From a virus, in IMG/VR virus record IMGVR_UViG_3300024335_000053, positions 1 to 22,168 of that record: a stretch of 22,168 bases of DNA; one strand, written 5' to 3'. Numbering within the stretch: the first letter of the stretch is position 1; every line of letters starts with the position of its first letter. The notes below the pieces were generated by a model. It saw nothing but the letters and a program-made list of their open reading frames with translations. It ran no database searches and was not told the origin of the DNA. The position numbers and the translations under genes were made by a program. This document shows, one piece after another, positions 3,184-22,098 of this stretch.

Positions 3184-3523
3184 CAGAGGTAAGCTGAATA
3201 ACTACAGGCGGTAGATCTCTCACGTCTTGCTGTACCTGATCGCTCTGACCGAGCACATTCTTTCCTAGCCATATCAGCATGGACGGGTTGCCCGACAATG
3301 CCACTTCATACTGTTTTCGGCGAAGGCTCATTTTCCCGCCAGATGACGCCTTTTTATAGTAGTCCGAAAAATTAACCCCATAATCTTCATTGCATCGGTT
3401 GTTGAGGGTGTCGTAATGCACCTCTAGGATCGAGCTAATTTCGTCCCCAGTGCATTGAATCGAGCACAGCTTCTCTACTAGAGCCCAGTCGATAGGTTTC
3501 TTTGGTCTGCCAACGTCAGACAT
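3170..3523 (-). CDS. Putative terminase small subunit (DNA-recognition protein)
   Basis: This is a 117-residue basic protein. The N-terminal half looks like a helix-turn-helix region: G-R-P-K-K-P-I-D-W, then L-C-S-I-Q-C-T-G-D-E-I-S-S-I-L-E-V-H-Y-D-T-L. It is followed by S-S-G-G-K-M-S-L-R-R-K-Q and N-P-S-M-L-I-W-L-G-K-N-V-L-G-Q, a pattern I recognise from many phage proteins encoded directly before terL. Such proteins are taken to bind the packaging site and present the DNA to the large subunit. It overlaps terL by 14 bases and the oxygenase gene upstream by 8 (ATGTCTGA), so all three are made from one transcript with coupled translation. The small-terminase role is inferred from position, size and HTH character. 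Confidence 0.7.
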   Translation of the reverse strand: MSDVGRPKKPIDWALVEKLCSIQCTGDEISSILEVHYDTLNNRCNEDYGVNFSDYYKKASSGGKMSLRRKQYEVALSGNPSMLIWLGKNVLGQSDQVQQDVRDLPPVVIQLTSDATD

Positions 3524-4262
3524 TGAGAAACGCCTTTAGCGGATAGAACACAAGGCTATTGCGATACCCACCCTCAAAAGTCGGAACAATCGGAGTAACG
3601 CCGTGGACATTGCGCCACGCTGGGTATACAAGCAGGCTGTTATCGCATTGATCTATTACAGCGTTGTAGTCAGGTACGCACAGGTTTCCGCCCGTTGAAT
3701 TTTTCCGTTTAGTGATGATCGCGTTCACCGTATTCGGAATGTTGGCGGTGTCTCTATGGAACGGTGCACTGATGTTGTAATTGCTAATCGAGCTACTGAA
3801 CAAGCGACCGACTTTGTACTTGTCGTCGACCTTACTGAATACCTTCATCTGAGACTCGTATTGCTCGGGCATGATGTCCGCAATGATCTGCTCTGACTCG
3901 CGCGCCAGTAAGTCCATGGCCTTAATGAAATTCTTAGCTGAAGGCTTTGCGTGAACACTGCTCACCGAGTTATACGGCCTTCTCATGTGGGGCTTCGCTG
4001 GTACGCCACCAATGATACAAGAGTACTGCTCTACGCCTGATGCTCTTACCATAGCCGTTTTCGGAACCCGTTTGCTCCTTAGTTCGTGGTTGGCTAGGTT
4101 TGCCAGCTTTGCCGCTTTCTCGGGTAGCTCACGCAGAAAGAAGCCTACAATCTGATCGCCCGCCGTAAATATGCAATCTTCTGTGATCGTAGAATCCATG
4201 TCGCCGCAGACATCGCCTACCTTGATGCTGTGCTCGACTTCTACTAACTCAATTCGCTTCAT
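3516..4262 (-). CDS. 2-oxoglutarate/Fe(II)-dependent oxygenase, possibly TET/JBP-like
   Basis: This 248-residue protein has the residue pattern of the double-stranded beta-helix dioxygenases. H169-R-D171 (in S-A-P-F-H-R-D-T-A-N) and H220 (in W-R-N-V-H-G-V-T-P-I) would be the iron ligands. R234 (in G-G-Y-R-N-S-L-V-F-Y) would be the 2-oxoglutarate salt bridge, and G-G-N-L-C-V-P-D-Y lies between them. The GG-x-L-x-x-P-x-Y...HG-x-T-P-I...R-x-S-L-V-F-Y layout resembles TET/JBP-type oxygenases, which oxidise methylated pyrimidines in DNA. The N-terminal 90 residues are unassigned. The gene overlaps a ParB-like gene (14 bases) and the small-terminase gene (8 bases), so DNA is a likely substrate. A protein or small-molecule hydroxylase cannot be excluded. 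The ATG at 4262 has AGGAG ten bases upstream. Confidence 0.65.
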   Translation of the reverse strand: MKRIELVEVEHSIKVGDVCGDMDSTITEDCIFTAGDQIVGFFLRELPEKAAKLANLANHELRSKRVPKTAMVRASGVEQYSCIIGGVPAKPHMRRPYNSVSSVHAKPSAKNFIKAMDLLARESEQIIADIMPEQYESQMKVFSKVDDKYKVGRLFSSSISNYNISAPFHRDTANIPNTVNAIITKRKNSTGGNLCVPDYNAVIDQCDNSLLVYPAWRNVHGVTPIVPTFEGGYRNSLVFYPLKAFLNV

Positions 4263-8507: not shown

Positions 8508-8948
8508 CTACCCCCCCCAGTTTTTTGCATACTCCGAATTTTGAGGCTTTGTGAGTTTGACCCCTAGGTCAATGGCCCAAGCCTCCACTTGTGTCATAAA
8601 GTATAGCATTTCTCCCCTGTCTAGCGTCGAAGTGCCGCGAACCTGTGCGGGTATAGTCGTTTTGCCCACCTCAACGTCTTCGGTTCCAAGAAACTTATAC
8701 TTCAGCATGAGCTTTAGATCGTCTTCTGTACCCGTAAACCCGCCTCGCTTTTTAAAGTGCCGAGTCATGTCCCTTACCCACACATGGAAAAGGTCGTTTT
8801 GACTAAGCGAGCGACGTGGCTTGTACTCCTTTACCTGCCACGCTACAGGTTTTTCCCAGCACCATTCCGTTTCAAGAAATTTCTTGAAGGCTTCAATGCG
8901 GTCTTTGATTTCAATCGGGTCTTTTATCAGCCAAAACTCGCCCATCAT
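8508..8948 (-). CDS. NinB-like recombination protein
   Basis: This 146-residue protein matches the NinB (lambda Orf) pattern: a W-E-K-P-V-A-W-Q-V-K-E-Y segment, then R-R-S-L-S-Q-N-D-L-F-H-V-W (residues 45-57), which is the hallmark R-S-x-x-Q-N-x-x-x-[HW] stretch, and a C-terminal helical region. In lambda this protein binds SSB and single-stranded DNA and helps load the annealing protein, acting as a recombination mediator. The window also encodes an SSB-like protein with the matching acidic tail. The ATG at 8948 overlaps the previous stop as ATGA. The last codons pass through a run of eight G before the TAG. Confidence 0.75.
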   Translation of the reverse strand: MMGEFWLIKDPIEIKDRIEAFKKFLETEWCWEKPVAWQVKEYKPRRSLSQNDLFHVWVRDMTRHFKKRGGFTGTEDDLKLMLKYKFLGTEDVEVGKTTIPAQVRGTSTLDRGEMLYFMTQVEAWAIDLGVKLTKPQNSEYAKNWGG

Positions 8949-9319
8949 CGCGTCACCCTCTGCCCGTCATACGTCACATACTGCCCGTACTTATCTAGGC
9001 ATGACTTTCGGAAGCGTTCGTTTTGCATAAAGTCGTGCGTCAGATCGTCGAGTTGTGACCATTGCTTCATAGGCTTTTTGCCTGTTTGCTCTTGCTCCTG
9101 CTGTGCAAAGGGACTGCCGCCTTTCTGATTTGCGCGTGAGAGCCATGAGTTAACAAAGCGAGGCATTCCCCGCTCAGTCTTACGCTTAGGCTCGTTAGAG
9201 TCTAACCACACAGCCATGACGTTAAGCTCTGCGAATACGTCTACCTCGGGGTACGCGTGTTGCCATCCTAGAAGTTGCTCGTCTGTTGGTTGCCAGTCTG
9301 TGCCATCTTTGCAAATCAT
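8945..9319 (-). CDS. Conserved early phage protein, possibly replication-related
   Basis: This 124-residue protein contains W-Q-H-A-Y-P-E-V-D-V-F-A-E-L-N-V-M-A-V-W-L-D-S-N and R-K-T-E-R-G-M-P-R-F-V-N-S-W-L-S-R-A. The order A-Y-P...E-L...M-x-x-W-L-x-x-N...G-M-x-R-F-V-x-x-W-L-x-R is one I associate with accessory parts of phage replication proteins, but I cannot name a function with certainty. The C-terminal third is glutamine-rich and charged. I chose the ATG at 9319, which overlaps the upstream stop as ATGA and has AGGTGG five bases before it, over a GTG three codons earlier without a ribosome site. Confidence 0.55.
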   Translation of the reverse strand: MICKDGTDWQPTDEQLLGWQHAYPEVDVFAELNVMAVWLDSNEPKRKTERGMPRFVNSWLSRANQKGGSPFAQQEQEQTGKKPMKQWSQLDDLTHDFMQNERFRKSCLDKYGQYVTYDGQRVTR

Positions 9320-9750
9320 GCGAGCCACCTAATTTCGCTTTTGTCGATCATATACATTGGCTCGATGTCGTCAGGTAAAGCCTTGCGGCCTTTCTGCGTA
9401 CCGCCAGCAATTTTTAGCGTTGCTTCACAATCAGACCATGCGCCTCCACCATGCACTTTCACAAAACCAATCTGAGCATTGTGGCGAAACACAAGGAAAA
9501 ACGGCTTGCCTGTCTCCTGCGCTAAATTGCACCCCTCTAAATACTTAGGCACGTTTAATCCTAAGAACAGGCTTTTTTTGTAGTCTTTCACTTCCGCCCA
9601 TGCCGCAACTTCCGCATCACGATAAAGCACTGCGTCGATGCGATACTTGCCGCCGTTACCTAACTTGTGCCAGTTGCATTTAAACGTCTTCGCAAACACG
9701 TCGAGAATTTCTGCCTCATTTGATAGATCTTGCGCTGTTTCTCTAAGCAT
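9316..9750 (-). CDS. PD-(D/E)XK-type nuclease
   Basis: This 144-residue protein has the core of the restriction-endonuclease-like fold. D39 (Y-R-I-D-A-V-L-Y) begins a strand and E53-V-K55 (A-A-W-A-E-V-K-D-Y) ends the next, which gives the D...E-x-K metal site. An N-terminal helix carries a glutamate (N-E-A-E-I-L) of the usual kind. The remainder is a mixed alpha/beta region with F-F-L-V-F-R. Proteins of this size and position often act as phage recombination nucleases or resolvases, but substrate and specificity cannot be told from the sequence. The ATG at 9750 overlaps the previous stop as TAATG with GAGGTGA upstream, so it is translated together with the gene before it. Confidence 0.65.
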   Translation of the reverse strand: MLRETAQDLSNEAEILDVFAKTFKCNWHKLGNGGKYRIDAVLYRDAEVAAWAEVKDYKKSLFLGLNVPKYLEGCNLAQETGKPFFLVFRHNAQIGFVKVHGGGAWSDCEATLKIAGGTQKGRKALPDDIEPMYMIDKSEIRWLA

Positions 9751-9995
9751 TACGCGTCACCTCGCACTATCTGAAAGTAGTCATCTGTCAGCTCAATAAA
9801 TTGCACGCCTGTTGCATTCTTACGGCCCATGTCTAACAGGGCATCGCTGTACAACTCTGTGAGGTCGCCAATCCAATCTCTTACAACATCAGCACGCCAT
9901 AACGCATCTTTTTCTTCCCAGCCATCAGCTACAACAATGTCGCCTTCGCCGCTCCATGCGTCTAACCTTAATCTTACTTCGTTCGTTAGTTTCAT
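9750..9995 (-). CDS. Small acidic hypothetical protein
   Basis: This 81-residue protein is not one I recognise. It is acidic and likely alpha/beta (L-R-L-D-A-W-S-G-E-G-D-I-V-V-A-D-G-W-E-E; W-I-G-D-L-T-E-L-Y-S-D-A-L-L-D-M). A consensus AAGGAG lies eight bases before the ATG at 9995. It is the first gene after the 390-base non-coding stretch and is followed, with a one-base overlap, by the PD-(D/E)XK nuclease gene. Confidence 0.6.
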   Translation of the reverse strand: MKLTNEVRLRLDAWSGEGDIVVADGWEEKDALWRADVVRDWIGDLTELYSDALLDMGRKNATGVQFIELTDDYFQIVRGDA

Positions 9996-10019
9996 ACCCT
10001 TCTCCTTTTTTTAGACAAT
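9991..10019 (+). promoter_or_regulatory. Candidate plus-strand promoter for the structured RNA
   Basis: TTCATA (9991-9996), a 17-base spacer and GACAAT (10014-10019) match four of six bases at both the -35 and -10 consensus. The predicted start, near 10026, falls two bases before the first arm of the outer stem of the structured region. The boxes are weak and overlap the start of the minus-strand gene at 9995, so the call is tentative. Confidence 0.3.
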
Positions 10020-10025
10020 AGGGAT

Positions 10026-10387
10026 CATTAGAGGCGGTTGTTGCCCTATACAAGTATCTAGCTAGTCCATCATTCATACAGTATCAGTGCAGATCATTAA
10101 CGGCTCTGCCAGACCGCGCCCTTACTACATGGCAACATAACCACTGTTCGTCCCCGCCTCTAAAGGTCGTAGGAATGAATCGGCTTTCTTGAGCGACTGC
10201 ACCTGAGACAGCACTATTTGACTAGGCTCGACTAGGCACTCATTTCGGAGGGATAGGTGAGATAGGTGTACAGACAGCTAGATTGCTGTACAATTCTTCC
10301 TATCCTTCTGAGTGCAATCTAAGGATGCCACAAGCTCCCTTCTCAAAGCAAGTGGTCGGCCCCGTCTCATCAACGGGGCTTTTTTTT
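10026..10387 (+). ncRNA. Candidate ~360-nt structured non-coding RNA
   Basis: This 390-base interval has no plausible gene, yet it holds nested inverted repeats and ends in a strong plus-strand terminator. Domain 1: a perfect 10-bp stem TTAGAGGCGG/CCGCCTCTAA (10028-10037 with 10154-10163) encloses a perfect 7-bp stem TGTTGCC/GGCAACA (10039-10045 with 10131-10137). Domain 2: three nested 7-bp stems, GCACTCA/TGAGTGC (10236-10242 with 10309-10315), GGATAGG/CCTATCC (10251-10257 with 10299-10305) and TGTACAG/CTGTACA (10267-10273 with 10286-10292). Then comes the terminator at 10359-10387. The T-tract is on the plus strand, against the direction of the surrounding genes, which argues for a separate transcript. 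It does not match tRNA, tmRNA or other RNAs I know. An origin of replication or a protein-binding region is the main alternative. Confidence 0.45.
10359..10387 (+). terminator. Intrinsic terminator, plus strand
   Basis: A 7-bp stem GCCCCGT/ACGGGGC (10359-10365 with 10373-10379) with a 7-base loop is followed by eight T residues (10380-10387). On the minus strand no T-run follows the hairpin, so it can end only plus-strand transcription. No plus-strand gene lies before it. Confidence 0.85.
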
Positions 10388-10595
10388 ACCTCCCTAATTT
10401 CAAAAACTCATCAACAGACATGTTGAAGTAAGCCGACAGCTGAACCACTCGACTCACCTTGGCATCTTCCCACTGCCGCCACCTGCTTACCTGCGTAGGT
10501 GTAACACTCATTGCCGACGCTAACTTTTCATTGTCAACGTCAGTGATCGCCTGCGCTCTCTTGATTGCCTTGCCTATCTTAAAATGGCAGATCAT
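10386..10595 (-). CDS. Small Cro/CI-type helix-turn-helix protein
   Basis: This 69-residue protein consists of one XRE-type DNA-binding domain. Helices of about residues 6-17 are followed by N-E-K-L-A-S-A-M-S-V-T-P-T-Q-V-S-R-W-R (22-40), the helix-turn-helix, and then L-S-A-Y-F-N-M-S-V-D-E-F-L, the usual closing helices of Cro/CI domains. It lacks any dimerisation or cleavage domain, so it resembles a Cro-like or CI-like regulator in its smallest form. The palindrome at 11962-11977 is a candidate binding site. The ATG at 10595 has AAGGAG seven bases upstream and lies inside the end of the SSB-like gene (17-base overlap). Confidence 0.8.
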   Translation of the reverse strand: MICHFKIGKAIKRAQAITDVDNEKLASAMSVTPTQVSRWRQWEDAKVSRVVQLSAYFNMSVDEFLKLGR

Positions 10596-10840: not shown

Positions 10841-11452
10841 TTACTTCCCTCCATTCGGGTTTTGCTTCATGCACTTAACCTCGTGCGTTGTGAATACCCC
10901 GCCTTTCGTATAGGCGCGGCTAAACTTCTGTTTAACCTCGTTCGGTGTCTCTTCAATAATGCATCGCAACGTGTCCCACTCTTCATTAACTACTGCTGAT
11001 TTAATGCTGGCAACAAAGTCAAAGTGTTTGTCGATTGCATGCACGTAAGCAATCAACTGAGCCTCAATAGAGTCGGTAAATTCGTCTGCCTCCTCCTCTG
11101 AGTAAGTGTCACCAGCAACGCCAAGCAACTTTAAGATAACGCGGTCTTTTGCTCGCTTCTCTGCCATCGCAAACGGATAATCATTGCGACAGTTACGCGA
11201 GGACACCTCACCAATAGACCATTCTTGCCTGTCACCTAAGCGACCTGTCACCTGAATAACCACCTCTTTGCTTGCAGGGTTACTTAGTAAATGCACAGGC
11301 GCATCGAACTGAATGCCCTTGTTGGCGGCAATCTTCTCTAGCGCCTTATGGAGGACAACGGGCGTGCCATGACAATCCCATGTTGCAGACCCTACAGTCT
11401 CGTCAACATCTTTCAGCGCCTTCTCTAGCGCCTCGGGAATTTTATTAGCCAT
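10841..11452 (-). CDS. Conserved early phage protein, possible annealing (ERF/Rad52-like) protein
   Basis: This 203-residue protein contains an alpha/beta region with V-V-I-Q-V-T-G-R-L-G...E-W-S-I-G-E-V-S and then P-F-A-M-A-E-K-R-A-K-D-R-V-I-L-K-L-L-G (residues 93-111) and Y-S-E-E-E-A-D-E-F. The A-M-A-E-K-R-A-x-D-R-x-x-L-K-L-L-G helix is widely seen in phage proteins encoded next to SSB genes. Its position recalls the A-x-T-Y-A-R-R-Y-x-L helix of ERF single-strand annealing proteins. That comparison is by eye and may not mean homology. The context of SSB, NinB, NinG-like and PD-(D/E)XK genes supports a recombination role. A helical C-terminal part follows. The gene overlaps its upstream neighbour by one base. 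Confidence 0.45.
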   Translation of the reverse strand: MANKIPEALEKALKDVDETVGSATWDCHGTPVVLHKALEKIAANKGIQFDAPVHLLSNPASKEVVIQVTGRLGDRQEWSIGEVSSRNCRNDYPFAMAEKRAKDRVILKLLGVAGDTYSEEEADEFTDSIEAQLIAYVHAIDKHFDFVASIKSAVVNEEWDTLRCIIEETPNEVKQKFSRAYTKGGVFTTHEVKCMKQNPNGGK

Positions 11453-16137: not shown

Positions 16138-16438
16138 TCCACGGTACTCCGTCAAAGGTTGTTGGTGTCTTCTGACTAGATATATTATCAGTTAGCGCAG
16201 TTTCAACCGTATCACCATCAACTTCTGCTTTTACCCACCCAATAACCGTTGCCTCAGTGAGATCGTCATAGGCAACGAAATCATCTGCGTCAGCATCGGG
16301 CGTGAATGAACAAGTCCCATAAGATGACGCTGTGAATGTGTCGTCACCTACTGTTTCGGAATCGTCACAACGCCAGTGAGCCACGATAACCCCGCCGTCA
16401 GCCTGACGCTCTAAGTTTGCTATTGACCATGTAGCCAT
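16130..16438 (-). CDS. Conserved tail-fibre-associated small protein
   Basis: This 102-residue acidic beta-rich protein begins M-A-T-W-S-I-A-N-L-E-R and contains V-I-V-A-H-W-R-C-D-D, Y-G-T-C-S-F-T-P-D and L-T-E-A-T-V-I-G-W-V-K, ending G-V-P-W-N-D. This W-S-I-x-x-L-E-R...A-H-W-R...Y-G-T...V-x-G-W-V-K...G-V-P-W order is common in marine phages right after fibre genes (the DUF7936-type pattern, as far as I recall). Function is unknown; a fibre or tail component or chaperone is possible. The ATG at 16438 overlaps the fibre stop (TAATG) with AAGGAG eight bases upstream. Confidence 0.6.
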   Translation of the reverse strand: MATWSIANLERQADGGVIVAHWRCDDSETVGDDTFTASSYGTCSFTPDADADDFVAYDDLTEATVIGWVKAEVDGDTVETALTDNISSQKTPTTFDGVPWND

Positions 16439-19400
16439 TAGTTTTCTCCTTCAAGTTGTGCGACTCGCGCACGTAGTGTTTGGATCTCTTTCAACATCAT
16501 CGGTACAAGTTTGGAGTAGTCTACACTCTGCATCTCTTCTGCGTCATCTGGGACGCTTACCGCTTCAGGTGCGACAGTGCTTAGTTCCTGCGCGACCATG
16601 CCGTACTTCTGGTGTGACCCGTCAGCCTTAAAGTCAAACGACCGCACTTTAATAGCGTCAATGTCATCAGAGGCAGAGGGCGCATCGACAATGTTTTCTT
16701 TAGCTCGCTGATCGGATGTGGTGTTGTACGAGGTAGTAGAGCCAGAAATAGAGATTGAGCCGCGAGTCGTGCCGTTTGTGCGGAAGTTAATTAGGGTGCC
16801 GTCGGAGTCGATTCTATTAAAAACGGCTAGGGTATTGCTTGAGCGCACAACCGACATAAAGCCCGATGATCCTAAGAACCGTATGCCCTGCGTCGTGTTA
16901 TCGGCAGAGGTTTTTCCGAGCAAGAGATTGCCGCTAGTATCAATACGCGCACGCTCTGTGGTGTTCGTCATAAACTGAAGAGCATGGTTTGATAACGTGC
17001 CGAATTGAGTGCCACTACTGTTTGGATACATGTAAGAGCGGACTGTTTCGCCTGATGACTCAAGAAGTAACGCGCCTCCTTTAGAATCAACAAGGGCTTT
17101 AATATTGAGCGTGGTGGCGTTGGAGCTTATTTGATCTGGAGCAGTGCCAATACCAACATTCCCGCTCGCATCGATGCGCATGCGTTCTGAGCCATTTGTG
17201 TGAATTTGAAAATCATTTGTACCGTTTCTAAGTCTTGTAACACTGCCACTATTAGCAGACTGCATCGTAACGTCGCAATTTGAGTTATTTGTTGCAAGAG
17301 ACATGACAACAGGAGTTGCTGATATTCCTCCTCCCGCTGTAATTGCACCTGACAGGTAAAGGTCTTTGAAGCGATACGCTGATTGTCCAAGGTCAACTTG
17401 AGCATCAATAGCTGAATTTGTGGTTAAGTTTTGCGGTCTAATAATTTGAGAAGTATTAACAAATTGTAAGCCAGTGTCTGCATTACCAATAGTTAAGTCG
17501 CCACCTTCAGTACCAATACTACCGACTGTGGTGCCGTCTTTGCGGAAACTTAAAATTTCGCCATCTGAGGTTTTACGATTTAAGGCTAAGGTTAAACCGC
17601 CTGAACGTGTAATCCTAGTTTCTCCGCTGGGACTTGTTTGAAATCCAGCAAGGTTGTCGTTAAGGGAAGTTTTACCAACCAGCAAGTTGCCGCCTGCATT
17701 GAGGCGCATGCGTTCAGTGTTTTCTGTTAAAAAAGTAATGCCACGGCTACCAGTGGAGGTTCCTGTAGCAATTTGTAAATTATCAGACGCATCAAAAATT
17801 AATGCTTGTCTATCGTTTCCAGTTGAATCATATAATTGGATTTGCTCTGCAATGACATTTCCTGACAGGTGAAGGTCTTTGAAGCGTCCTCCATTGCGGC
17901 CTATGTTTATGGCGGCATCTCTAACAGAGCCAGCAGTTATTGACCATGGCTCTAGCTCATCGCCTACAGAATCGAAGAATAAACCAACATCACCAGTTCC
18001 AATAGCAAGTCTGTTGCCGCCTACAGAGGCAATACTACCGACTGTGGTGCCGTCTTTGTAAAAAATAGCGATATTGCCATCGTTTGTTTTGCGATTGAGG
18101 TTTAATGCCTCACCACCATCATTTGTAATGTTGACTCGTGAGCCGTTAGAGTCAGCAGAGCTAAAGGCAACAATGCCTTCTGTCGAAAACGTAGTAGCAG
18201 TCTTCCCCACCAGAAGATTGCCGCTCGAATCTAGGCGCATGTACTCAGTAGAGCCACCTTTGTTTCTAAAGATTTGCGTATTTGCATCTTTATACAAAGA
18301 ATCGTTAAAGTTATAAATGTCAGCGTATTCTGCCGCCGCATTTGTTTGTAAGCGTATGTAACCACCAGCAGAAGCATGACTGCTTTGTACGTGTAAAACT
18401 TTGTAGTTAGAAACGGCAGTTGGTGATGTGCCGATACCAACATTCCCGCCAGAGGCTATGCGCATGCGTTCTGAGCCGCCAGTTTCAAATGCTAACTGCC
18501 CATTTGCACTACTTGCATACATTTTACCGACTTGCGTTCCATCTGCTTTGCGAAACTCAATAGCCCCGAAGCCATTGGTAGTATTTGACTGAATAGTTAT
18601 TCCAGCGCCTGTTCCAGACGTGTCGTTTTTAATAACTAAATCATCGTAATAAGTTGAAGTGCCTGAACTAGGGTCAGACGTACCGATTCCAACCCGTCCC
18701 GCTGAGTCGATCCGCATTTGCTCTGTGCCACCATTGGTAGCAAAACGCATAAAATTACTGCCGTGGTTATAAGATAAATAACCAGAGTAACGGTCTGTTC
18801 CAGTAGTACCGTCAGCAAACATTAAATAATTTTCATGTGTAGTGGCGCCGACTAAAGTAAGACCGCCTTCACCACCTGCGTTTACAACTAACTCACTAGC
18901 GTAATATGAGCTAGGAGAAGTAAGACCAATACCAACCAAACCATTAGCATCGATACGCATGCGTTCTGAGCCGCTAGAACCTGTTTCAAAAGACATGTTT
19001 GCAGAGCTATCACATCTTATGCCGCCTCTGTATGTGCTATTAGGTGCGAATCTCCAATTTATATACTGACCATCATATAAACCAACGTCACCGCTAGAGC
19101 TGATGCGCATGCGTTCTGAGCCGCCACCTGTAGCAAAAGCTAAAGCCTGATTGCTGTGGGTATATTGAATGTATCCATCAGCTTTAGCCGCCGCAGAGCC
19201 AGTTCCATCAGCAAAAAACAAAGAACTAGCATTTGCTGTGCCGCTATAAACAGTTATGCCGTTGTTGCCTGAACCAGTTCCAACGACTAAATTATCACCA
19301 GCGGCATCAAAAGATGACGGACTGCTAGTGCCAATACCTACCGACGTTGCGACGTAAGCAGTGCCTGACAGGTAAAGGTCTTTGAAGCGGGCCGTAGAAG

Positions 19401-22098
19401 CGCCTAGATCTAATGCGTTGTCTAAGTTGTCACCGCTTGCGTCACAAGGTCTGATAGCCTGATTGTTTACAAACCTTAAGCCTGCGTGGGTTCCTCCGCT
19501 TGCTCCACCAGCTATGTAATAAAAACTGTTATAACCAATACTACCGACTGCGGCGTTGTCTTTGCGAACATCAAGAATAGTTCCGTCTGATGTTGTTCTG
19601 TTGAAATAGCCTACTGTTCCGCCAGACACAGTACCGACAATCAAGCCCGTAGAACGCAAGCTGATACCTGCGACATTGCCTGTTGTGTCAGTCTTACCAA
19701 CCAGCAAGTTGCCGCTAGCATCCAGCCTAGCCTTCTCACTGCCGCCAACTGTAAACTTGACGGGATTTGCTGAGGTTTGCGACCCAAACTCTACATTTGA
19801 AGCGTCTACATAAAGATTTGCGTACCCTGTTCCGCCAATGCCAAATGACAAGTTAGCAGTTGAAGCGCCGTTAATTGTTGTAGTAGTTCGTGAGGCGGCT
19901 GTGTAAATTGGACTGCTAGTGCCGATACCAACATTCCCGTTGCCTTTAATAGCAAATAAATCAGAGTCAGCCGCCGCATTCCTAACGTACATTGCAAAAT
20001 CTGATGATGTTGAGCCTGCGTCGATTAACAAGCCAGACTTAGAGCCTGATGTGGCATTGTTGTCTAAATAAGCAGTCCAGCCTGATGTAGAGGTGGCTAC
20101 AGTCAAAGGAACAGACGGACTGCTAGTGCCAATACCTACCCGTGTGGTATCAGCAGTAATACGCATGACCTCGCCAAGGTTGTTGTTAAACCTTAGTGCG
20201 CCTGCGTTGTCTGCATCTCGGTAGTGGATCTTAGCGCCGCTGTCGTCAGCCGTTACCGTAATCCGTGTGTTCTTAGTGCCGTCGTTCTTGTAGACGCGCA
20301 TCTGTACGTCAGAGGCTGTGTCGACGATATCTAACTTGGCCTGTGGCGTCGTGCTACCTAGACCTAAAAATTTTGTGCTGGCATCCCAGAACAGAGATTG
20401 GCTTGACCCCGCCGAATCGTAGAAGCTGATGTCTCCGTTGTTGGCGACACCAAATCTTTGAGCTGTATTACCTGAATTGAAAACATCAAAAGAACCATTA
20501 GTGCCACTTAACCTTACATGACCATCACTGTTACCTAAAAGAACTTGTCCAGCACCTATATTATTTGCTCTTCGTAAATCTGCTACATTTGCTGTTGCAC
20601 TTGATATGGTCAAACCATCAGCAACCACTGAGCCAGTTACGTCGAGATTACCGCCCGAAAATAGATTTCCGCCATAAGGCAACAACCGCATCTCATCGGT
20701 CGTTGTGTTGGTCATCCGAATAAATTCTGTATTAGCCACCCAAACGCGCAATCGTTCGTCTTGGTCTTCTGTAATGTAGGTCAGACCATCAGTGTCAAAG
20801 GCTATTTTGTTGCCAGTAGGTATTGTGACATTGCCAGTTACGTCGATGCCTGTGGAGGTTGTGGCTAGTTTAAGGCTGTTGTCGTAATAAAGTTGAACTG
20901 CTCCATCAACATTAGCAACCAACATGTTTTCAAAGGGAGACTTAACAAGTCTTACGCTATCGCCTGCTGTTTCTAAAAGCAGATTGCCAGTTCCTTGGTC
21001 ACTAATGTAGCTATTAGACCCATCATGGTAAATCTGTAGGTCTCCACTAGCGCCGAAGATAGCCTTGTCGTTGTCGCCAAAATTAAGGTTGGCAGAGGTG
21101 GTGCCGCCAGCAAAGGTAATGGTGCTTGCAAAGGTTGCCGCCGCCGCAAACGTGGTTTGCTTGTTGGGCTGAACGGTAAGCCACGTAGCCATGCTTCCAT
21201 TGGACAAGTTGTTTTGTATGCCGAAATAAAGTGCAGACCCGTTGTGACCTATAGCCGCCGCATCGCCCGTGCCGCCGCCGTGAACAAATAGCCCACGCGC
21301 AACCCAGCCACTGCCATCTGCGATAGTGCCAAAGCCGCCTGCATAAGATCCGTAAGCATCGGGATCTAATGTAGAGTTTCCAAATGCGACAGAGCTTGAA
21401 GTTAAAAGGCCGCCAGTAATATTAACCCCGTGGCTGAAATCAAACTCGTCGTTAGTTGCATCCCACAAGATAGTGGCGTTGTTGCTCGCATCCACCGCAT
21501 CTTGGATAGTGATGCCCGCGCCGTCTGCTGATGCTGACGTGTCGCCCGCGCCGTAGTTTAACGTGATGTTCTTGTCTTCAACGTCTAGCGTGGCAGTGTT
21601 GAGCGTAGTGGTGGTGCCGTTAACGGTTAGGTCGCCAGTAATTGTGGCATTGCCGCCGATGTTGGCGTCACCTGACAGCCACAGATGCTCCCACCTGTAA
21701 GAATCTAAACCGAGGCTAATACTGCCGTTCTGTATCGTTCCAGCATTGTTAGTCGATGCAACGTACCCGTTTCCAAGCCGTAACCCTGAATGGCCCGACG
21801 CCGATGAGTAAATAGCAAGGTCACCACTGACTGCCGCAACGACGCCTATCGAGCCACCATCCTTGTAAAACTGTGCAATCGTCCCGTCACTGTTGAGGCG
21901 GTTTAAGGCTAAGGGGACACCACCGTCGCGTGTCGCCCATATATTCCCTACATTGCGAACCTCTGCGCCTGCGGTACTAAAGTTACTGGAGGTCTTGCCC
22001 GTGAGGATGTTGCCAGAGTCATCAATGCGAGCCTTCTCATCGGTCGCTGAAGTCTTGAATATGAACTTTGCCGTGCTTCTGTGGTCGATGAAATCCAT
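16438..22098 (-). CDS. Giant modular tail fibre with S74 intramolecular chaperone
   Basis: This 1886-residue protein is a receptor-binding fibre or spike. Most of it is repeats of the forms S-E-R-M-R-I-D-x-x-G-N-V-G-I-G-T-S-S-P and S-G-N-L-L-V-G-K-T, typical of long trimeric beta fibres. The last 92 residues are a peptidase S74 domain: S1795-D-Q-R-A-K1800-E-N-I holds the Ser/Lys pair of the family, and the chain is expected to cut itself just before S1795 after the trimer folds, releasing the chaperone. K-Y-G-M-V-A-Q-E-L and a C-terminal leucine-rich coiled coil are also typical. The N-terminus starts inside a repeat with no virion-anchor domain, so the protein may attach through another protein. 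The ATG at 22098 is preceded by AAGG and by an in-frame stop 12 bases upstream. Confidence 0.85.
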   Translation of the reverse strand: MDFIDHRSTAKFIFKTSATDEKARIDDSGNILTGKTSSNFSTAGAEVRNVGNIWATRDGGVPLALNRLNSDGTIAQFYKDGGSIGVVAAVSGDLAIYSSASGHSGLRLGNGYVASTNNAGTIQNGSISLGLDSYRWEHLWLSGDANIGGNATITGDLTVNGTTTTLNTATLDVEDKNITLNYGAGDTSASADGAGITIQDAVDASNNATILWDATNDEFDFSHGVNITGGLLTSSSVAFGNSTLDPDAYGSYAGGFGTIADGSGWVARGLFVHGGGTGDAAAIGHNGSALYFGIQNNLSNGSMATWLTVQPNKQTTFAAAATFASTITFAGGTTSANLNFGDNDKAIFGASGDLQIYHDGSNSYISDQGTGNLLLETAGDSVRLVKSPFENMLVANVDGAVQLYYDNSLKLATTSTGIDVTGNVTIPTGNKIAFDTDGLTYITEDQDERLRVWVANTEFIRMTNTTTDEMRLLPYGGNLFSGGNLDVTGSVVADGLTISSATANVADLRRANNIGAGQVLLGNSDGHVRLSGTNGSFDVFNSGNTAQRFGVANNGDISFYDSAGSSQSLFWDASTKFLGLGSTTPQAKLDIVDTASDVQMRVYKNDGTKNTRITVTADDSGAKIHYRDADNAGALRFNNNLGEVMRITADTTRVGIGTSSPSVPLTVATSTSGWTAYLDNNATSGSKSGLLIDAGSTSSDFAMYVRNAAADSDLFAIKGNGNVGIGTSSPIYTAASRTTTTINGASTANLSFGIGGTGYANLYVDASNVEFGSQTSANPVKFTVGGSEKARLDASGNLLVGKTDTTGNVAGISLRSTGLIVGTVSGGTVGYFNRTTSDGTILDVRKDNAAVGSIGYNSFYYIAGGASGGTHAGLRFVNNQAIRPCDASGDNLDNALDLGASTARFKDLYLSGTAYVATSVGIGTSSPSSFDAAGDNLVVGTGSGNNGITVYSGTANASSLFFADGTGSAAAKADGYIQYTHSNQALAFATGGGSERMRISSSGDVGLYDGQYINWRFAPNSTYRGGIRCDSSANMSFETGSSGSERMRIDANGLVGIGLTSPSSYYASELVVNAGGEGGLTLVGATTHENYLMFADGTTGTDRYSGYLSYNHGSNFMRFATNGGTEQMRIDSAGRVGIGTSDPSSGTSTYYDDLVIKNDTSGTGAGITIQSNTTNGFGAIEFRKADGTQVGKMYASSANGQLAFETGGSERMRIASGGNVGIGTSPTAVSNYKVLHVQSSHASAGGYIRLQTNAAAEYADIYNFNDSLYKDANTQIFRNKGGSTEYMRLDSSGNLLVGKTATTFSTEGIVAFSSADSNGSRVNITNDGGEALNLNRKTNDGNIAIFYKDGTTVGSIASVGGNRLAIGTGDVGLFFDSVGDELEPWSITAGSVRDAAINIGRNGGRFKDLHLSGNVIAEQIQLYDSTGNDRQALIFDASDNLQIATGTSTGSRGITFLTENTERMRLNAGGNLLVGKTSLNDNLAGFQTSPSGETRITRSGGLTLALNRKTSDGEILSFRKDGTTVGSIGTEGGDLTIGNADTGLQFVNTSQIIRPQNLTTNSAIDAQVDLGQSAYRFKDLYLSGAITAGGGISATPVVMSLATNNSNCDVTMQSANSGSVTRLRNGTNDFQIHTNGSERMRIDASGNVGIGTAPDQISSNATTLNIKALVDSKGGALLLESSGETVRSYMYPNSSGTQFGTLSNHALQFMTNTTERARIDTSGNLLLGKTSADNTTQGIRFLGSSGFMSVVRSSNTLAVFNRIDSDGTLINFRTNGTTRGSISISGSTTSYNTTSDQRAKENIVDAPSASDDIDAIKVRSFDFKADGSHQKYGMVAQELSTVAPEAVSVPDDAEEMQSVDYSKLVPMMLKEIQTLRARVAQLEGEN
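16717..22035 (-). repeat. Five ~380-bp coding modules within the fibre gene
   Basis: The fibre holds five related modules near 22035-21650, 19745-19360, 18245-17860, 17720-17345 and 16960-16717. Each starts with K-A-R-[IL]-D or E-[RY]-M-R-L, passes G-N-[IL]-L-x-G-K-T, L-x-L-N-R-x-x-S-D-G and K-D-G-x-x-V-G-S-I, and the first four end in R-[FW]-x-[DH]-L-x-L-S-G. The fifth is cut short and runs straight into the S74 domain. Between them lie G-N-V-G-I-G-T units of other types. Confidence 0.7.
17348..19389 (-). repeat. Near-identical short DNA repeats in the fibre gene
   Basis: A 26-base sequence coding for R-F-K-D-L-[YH]-L-S-G occurs at 17348-17373, 17861-17886 (one mismatch) and 19364-19389. 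A 29-base sequence coding for D-G-T-T-V-G-S-I occurs identically at 17514-17542 and 18030-18058. A 17-base sequence CGCATGCGTTCTGAGCC, coding for G-S-E-R-M-R, occurs at 17177-17193, 18461-18477, 18956-18972 and 19106-19122. Identity at the DNA level suggests recent duplication or recombination between modules. Confidence 0.75.

Follow-up and report, generated by a model that had tools for sequence, protein, structure and literature searches.

GOLLD and ROOL, two kinds of structured RNA, often lie in phages. Another type of phage RNA is represented by OOP of lambda, which extends from pO as far as a hairpin terminator, with 52 of its bases overlapping cII (PMC5869508). The convergent promoter pO affects lambda replication (PMC3985674). 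In plasmids, rep is under antisense control (I-complex RNAI with a leader pseudoknot; ColE1, IncF) (PMC10724649).

OOP would be the nearest precedent in position, and RNAI with its leader pseudoknot the nearest in design, for the locus described here, which, judging from its sequence, looks like an RNA switch in a phage replication operon. No description of this RNA locus was found in the open-access literature. By this search and by Rfam the structured RNA locus is new, and its kind, a phage antisense RNA accompanied by a structured leader, is already known.

A conserved non-coding element among minus-strand genes

The window, i.e. the whole stretch of DNA that was analysed, is an IMG/VR virus record of 22,168 bases in which all but one of the picks of a simple ORF caller lie on the minus strand. 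Among 20 minus-strand ORFs submitted to PHROGs, the named matches are portal, terminase, tRNA-ribosyltransferase, ParB-like nuclease, NinG, exonuclease, NinB, SSB, and long tail fibre. The terminase is nearest to those of the Pelagibacter phages HTVC111P, 026P, 202P, and 112P, at 51-54%. The window also encodes a tail fibre-like protein of 1886 aa (16438-22098) and a queuine tRNA-ribosyltransferase-like gene (3516-4262) that adjoins the ParB-like nuclease gene, an arrangement perhaps related to DNA modification.

The original prediction placed a candidate structured RNA in a gap without genes, and this gap was borne out, flanked by minus-strand ORFs at 9750-9995 and 10386-10595 (Table 1). The perfect inverted-repeat arms were recovered as described (10028-10037/10154-10163, 10039-10045/10131-10137, 10236-10242/10309-10315, and 10267-10273/10286-10292), and so was the plus-strand terminator, at 10358-10380 with its T run. 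The part of the observation that did not stand is the promoter immediately to the left of the outer stem, where a consensus scan found none and where no -35 box is recognisable. The RNA had been said to match neither tRNA nor tmRNA, and ARAGORN indeed returned 0 genes. Searching the window with Rfam 15 gave 0 matches at the gathering threshold, and the near-hits were rejected as chance (best E 0.056, for anti-hemB, which scored 18.6 bits where the gathering score is 49.5). Extending the search up to E 5 for the element yielded nothing beyond chance-like weak matches, and up to E 1 in six relatives nothing but weak matches far below the gathering score.

Table 1. Coordinates of the features of the locus in the window.
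Feature	Position	Strand	Remarks
Gene related to part of a phage replisome organizer	8945-9328	-	tblastn
Whole conserved non-coding element (intergenic gap)	9996-10385		390 bases
Shine-Dalgarno block AAAAAAAGGAGAAGGGT and GACAATAG block, left edge	9996-10027	-	Invariant or nearly so (8 sequences)
Core domain closed by outer stem H1	10028-10163		H1 TTAGAGGCGG/CCGCCTCTAA; H2 TGTTGCC/GGCAACA inside
Pseudoknot helix Pk	10070-10178		10070-10079 with 10169-10178; crosses H1
Hairpin CTAG-GCTCGA-CTAG	10222-10235		Conserved six-base loop
Long apical hairpin	10236-10315		GCACTCA..TGAGTGC / GATAGG..CCTATC / TGTACAG..CTGTACA; overlaps promoter; arms covary
-10 box TACAAT of predicted internal promoter	10289-10294	+	6-8 nt before start-site stem
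Predicted small RNA, about 86 nt	10302-10387	+	Start A10302; three hairpins
5'-terminal stem X'/X'' (start-site stem)	10302-10326	+	ATCCTT 10302-10307 / AAGGAT 10321-10326; covarying
Middle hairpin of the predicted small RNA	10328-10355	+	CCAC/GTGG
Intrinsic terminator	10358-10387	+	T run abuts HTH gene stop codon 10386-10388
Small Xre/Cro-type HTH gene	10386-10595	-	Stop codon abuts terminator

The protein encoded by the adjoining HTH gene has no match in PHROGs at E 0.001. Its identification as CII was considered and is not supported, Pfam Phage_CII being detected in 2 of 11 members with a best E of 0.055; the family is of the Xre/HTH_3 type. One relative (L007, 944-1359) carries two different HTH genes of this same family in tandem, adjoining the element. 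On the other side, the product of the gene at 8945-9328 matches by tblastn, at 34% over residues 8-103 (E 3e-12), a protein annotated as replisome organizer, and the three other tblastn matches are hypothetical proteins; the product may be a split or reduced initiator.

With the neighbouring protein 10841-11452 as query, 18 viral loci were retrieved. In nine of them, the DNA of the gap is 86-94% identical by BLASTN, with an adjoining HTH protein 47-65% identical, and the contig of a tenth (L008) carries the element on another stretch (L036). The remaining eight loci (L011-L018) have a different core in the same slot and next to it a right-hand module of the same kind, so that all 18 contigs found through this protein carry one core type or the other. 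Altogether, about 135 IMG/VR stretches contain the locus. Sixty-five of them belong to class I/II, the one to which the element of the window belongs (60 found with exact patterns, plus L079 and L080, plus the three divergent L081, L082, and L084) and 70, found with exact patterns, to class III. A further candidate, L083 on a 92-kb contig, was rejected, its agreement with the core pattern being judged accidental. The element DNA has no match in INPHARED, PLSDB, or the species genomes searched. Counts of copies given below refer to unique sequences and not to independent events, as many copies are near-duplicates; some contigs stand under two locus ids, and the rows of L033, L038, L076, L081, and L082 were dropped from one analysis of relatives.

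Two relatives of about 32.4 kb (G001 and G003) have identical 99-bp ends and are probably complete circles. Almost all of their genes share one strand, and the element is found on the opposite one. G003 also contains a small block of plus-strand ORFs at 23124-24635. Several relatives (L009, L028, L054, and others) have small cassettes to the right of the terminator, which separate the HTH gene from the element or lie near it; they comprise an 81-aa protein of unknown kind and, by eye, reductase-like and HNH-like genes.

The core and its strand

The original prediction had called for compensatory changes in homologues, and covariation is present in the core as well as in the start-site and terminator stems. 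The outer stem H1 is found in 53/53 scored unique class I/II copies, in the form of 8 distinct helices. Because helix Pk crosses H1, the two together make a pseudoknot. The best Pk pairing lies above threshold in all of the 53 scored unique class I/II copies and comprises 22 distinct helices (L038 and L082 entered this survey without their 5' part). As the Pk score by itself is not strict, swapped-loop and shuffled-loop controls were run. The own pairing of a copy exceeds that obtained with a swapped loop (at least 4 differences) in 793 of 928 comparisons (40 distinct partner pairs), and with shuffled loops the mean own score is attained in 1.6%. In the hairpin carrying the GCTCGA loop, the stem becomes AAGAG/CTCTT or GTAGTG/CACTAC in relatives.

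The class III core is a second and unlike type found in another clade. One of its helices covaries as CGACG/CGTCG, CGAGG/CCTCG, CGGGG/CCCCG, and CAGGG/CCCTG. Further covarying helices include CCGCT/AGCGG, replaced by TCCCT/AGGGA, and a 5' hairpin.

The edge of the core was surveyed at 115 unique junctions, searched to 150 nt. A start codon follows the core edge on the minus strand within 40 nt in 114 of them, with both core classes, a proximity much of which would be expected from a densely packed minus-strand operon alone; in 110, a Shine-Dalgarno motif accompanies an ATG. The genes placed after the core belong to 16 families by BLASTP, the replisome-organizer relative occupying this position in 42 of the 115.

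Folding energy does not decide the strand, since both strands beat their shuffles. The comparison with shuffled controls proposed originally came out in favour of a structured plus strand, the stretch 10026-10390 folding at -112.4 kcal/mol (z -2.26) with 0/100 shuffles as good, and its minus strand folds at -120.3 kcal/mol (z -2.41) with 1/100 shuffles as good. RNAalifold on 23 representatives gave -147.7 for plus and -160.7 for minus, against a mean of -92.4 for column-shuffled plus alignments (L019, L073, and L084 were lost, their segments having ended early at an inner T run). For the class I/II core, z is -2.29/-2.42. The core of the window alone, folded as minus strand, is no better than shuffles (z +0.13), and the relative L084 reaches z -1.02 as plus strand.

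Wobble pairs, which give mixed indications in class I/II and indicate minus in class III cores, were scored by counting helix variants with G.U on plus against those with A.C on plus, which correspond to G.U on minus. Pk stands at a G.U:A.C ratio of 3:9, class III Ha at 0:6, Hb at 0:1, and Hd at 1:1 (1:3 under a cruder extraction), i.e. 4:17 in sum. Extended by the same rule, H2 (2:7) and H4 (2:4) lean to minus as well, and H1 and Hb2 stand at 0:0. The class I helix Hc is opposite, with 5 G.U variants against 0 A.C (131 cells against 0) and full pairing only on plus; a reading of Hc as a neutral stem of lesser length is also possible, and by eye the divergent copy L209 keeps it poorly. With Hc the ledger becomes 9:17, and with H2 and H4 too, 13:28. 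When all compensating helices are summed, chance ones included, the ratios on plus are 90:130 for class I/II, 74:110 for class I, and 126:184 for class III (top 22, 22, and 19 helices, respectively).

The right-hand part of the element gives another picture by class. The start-site stem has a ledger of 7:3 towards plus. In the predicted 3' module of class I/II, G.U and A.C number 56 and 14 on plus, and 18 and 25 on minus. For class III the same module yields 13 and 17 on plus, and 49 and 17 on minus, which speaks against plus there. L135 and L157 (of 29) are missing both from this structure count and from the strand-neutral helix search. RNAfold of 46 unique right-hand segments produced 190 G.U pairs on plus versus 73 on minus, with the plus energy lower in 30/46 (L019, L038, L051, L082, and L084 ended early at the inner T run). 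In the three stems of the long apical hairpin, G.U cells number 3, 14, and 5, and A.C cells 7, 10, and 1. The unit made of box, stem, and terminator is of the plus strand by nature. For the core, the wobble ledger, with Hc opposing, and the start codons at the core edge together lead to a lean, somewhat better than even, towards a minus-strand leader.

A predicted small RNA on the plus strand

A consensus scan detected a plus-strand promoter match inside the element, TGTACA-16-TACAAT at 10267-10294, whose -10 box is conserved jointly with the start-site stem. The segment downstream of it folds at -28.4 kcal/mol (z -3.29), and 0/200 shuffles are as good. The box followed by the covarying start-site stem occurs in 113/115 unique copies under an anchored rule applied to all classes. 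Thirty-four distinct helices, such as ATCTTC/GAAGAT and GTCTTA/TAAGAC, form this stem over the 113 copies, and a variant ATCATTG/CAATGAT is also found in relatives. The terminator stem is swapped for other complementary stems in relatives, and a hairpin with T run is present in 105 of the 113.

A simpler test of box and stem was passed by 103/111 unique copies, 0/111 reverse strands, and 21/1110 shuffles, both controls using an identical -10 list. The accepted -10 boxes were taken from copies already seen, so the scores of box, stem, and unit are not blind; L014 was unscored in one survey of the start-site stem. Scanned for box, stem, and terminator together, the window contains a single match over both strands, at 10289-10379 on plus. 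Whole-record scans found one unit each in G001, G003, G008, and G015, always against the direction of most genes, and no unit in either Vibrio phage 1.167 or HTVC111P, the one scanned among the four Pelagibacter phages.

The unit was also sought upstream of the replisome-organizer relative, in the best 80 of 125 loci of this gene, from which 16 with less than 700 nt upstream were left out. It lies on the opposite strand in 47 of the remaining 64 and on the sense strand in 0/64. Among the 17 loci lacking it, 10 have a class I/II core yet fail the strict scan. The 7 others of the 64 show neither the exact core pattern nor the unit, even within 3 kb. Conservation, covariation, the strand-specific unit, and its position are computed results.

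These data support the right-hand 86 nt as a predicted plus-strand RNA with an intrinsic terminator. For the earlier proposal of a plus-strand RNA of about 360 nt, it is the right-hand part that is upheld; a start at the left edge is not well supported, as it is within the element that the conserved promoter-like box is found. More generally, a phage non-coding RNA outside Rfam with compensatory changes is supported, and a single transcript of about 360 nt is not well supported.

Possible function and comparison with known systems

The explanation preferred here, to which an even chance is given, is a two-part RNA control locus in which an antisense RNA and a structured leader would together control the replication/recombination operon. 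Transcription of the small RNA would start at the internal promoter, proceed towards the HTH gene, and terminate at the stop codon of that gene. As the small RNA would be copied from the same DNA as the operon mRNA, but from the other strand, it would be complementary without mismatch to the part of that mRNA immediately following the HTH gene. The core (10028-10242) with its pseudoknot would most likely be a minus-strand part of this mRNA, extending right up to the ribosome-binding site of the next gene, whatever its family. By pairing through its hairpins with the operon mRNA, the small RNA may cause the mRNA to be lowered or cleaved, with a tuning of the HTH regulator and of the genes behind the core as outcome; alternatively, its binding may alter the folding of the core. 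Transcription, the minus strand of the core, the antisense action, and the operon as target are what we infer from the computed features.

A more far-reaching version, which is possible but on the doubtful side, is a modular two-strand RNA switch exerting cis control of the replication/recombination operon, in which the antisense small RNA would be conserved in structure and the folded leader exchangeable. At least two unlike core types, one of them pseudoknotted, could then be placed before any of the 16 gene families. Such a switch might also control related co-infecting phages in trans, in the manner of plasmid incompatibility.

The covarying arms of the apical hairpin fall half outside the small RNA, a feature that a short RNA alone leaves unexplained. 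It would be accounted for by a single long non-coding RNA from the plus strand, about 360 nt in length, running from left of the outer stem to the terminator and folding core and hairpins jointly, with the short RNA as a processed or secondary form, since this hairpin extends to either side of the internal box. The block is, moreover, conserved as a whole, most class I/II copies have a GACAAT-like block 7-8 nt ahead of the outer stem, and plus is favoured by helix Hc and by the 3' module of class I/II. However, the left edge has no consensus promoter, class III cores, which precede the same kind of 3' module, are devoid of the GACAAT block (by eye), the class III helices favour minus, and the core ledger of 4:17 points the same way, all of which makes a single long RNA rather unlikely.

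Two further explanations would make DNA the acting molecule, at least in part. The locus could be a replication origin, where a plus transcript activates or primes replication, the folded core acts in single-stranded form (DNA or RNA), and a protein binds, either the HTH protein or the replisome-organizer relative. Its vicinity to the replisome-organizer-related gene and to SSB and recombination genes is consistent with this, and the effect of pO on lambda replication offers a precedent (PMC3985674). Repeated GTAACGAGTTGT-like units, possible operators by eye, lie over the promoter in the hairpin region of L012 and L084. The detrended cumulative GC skew has its minimum 1.5-3 kb right of the element in 3/3 records (G001, G003, and G008; 1.5-kb sampling), but its maximum lies about 5 kb to the left in 2/3 of them; as this is close by and not opposite, the skew provides no clean origin signal. 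An RNA-type pseudoknot kept in 53 scored class I/II copies also argues against an origin, protein-binding origins needing none, and this explanation is unlikely. The same pseudoknot weighs on the idea of a purely double-stranded regulatory region, with HTH-bound palindromic operators over a promoter and a conserved block serving as recombination joint between cassettes. The palindromes do overlap the -10/-35 region, they differ where the HTH type differs (L023, L045, and class III; by eye), and genes are exchanged on both flanks. Operators, however, need no helix such as the covarying Pk crossing H1, and both the start-site stem and the terminator stems covary, so that a region acting as DNA only is very doubtful.

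If the antisense reading is true, RNA control in the style of plasmids and of OOP extends to a broad range of phages in which, apart from this, almost all genes share one strand, and the interchangeable cores form a natural series for mutational tests. Like GOLLD and ROOL, which are large (PMC12286853), the element would be a structured RNA without protein product; unlike them, it is shorter, has no Rfam match, and carries a terminator unit on the opposite strand.

With lambda OOP, the locus shares a short RNA directed against a replication operon, with its own promoter and intrinsic terminator, here as sequence signals only. The setting is also alike, with a small HTH regulator gene adjoining and with the replisome-organizer relative and NinB and NinG homologues downstream. 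Contrary to OOP, whose overlap with cII is given as 52 bases (PMC5869508), the RNA predicted here has its end at the HTH stop codon. The neighbouring gene is of Xre/HTH_3 type instead of cII. To our knowledge, lambda has no such pseudoknotted core. Compared with plasmid control, in which the leader precedes rep, the core is followed by the replisome-organizer relative in only 42/115 unique junctions, and the small RNA would face the region before the core and not the pseudoknot. Defining tests of both the OOP and the plasmid RNAI families came out negative, and the locus is therefore filed as neither. What it would have in common with plasmid RNAI control (PMC10724649) is a structured antisense RNA opposed to a leader, a pseudoknot in this leader, and replication genes under control; here, the helix Pk that would correspond to the plasmid leader pseudoknot covaries strongly, and the strand of the core leans to minus.
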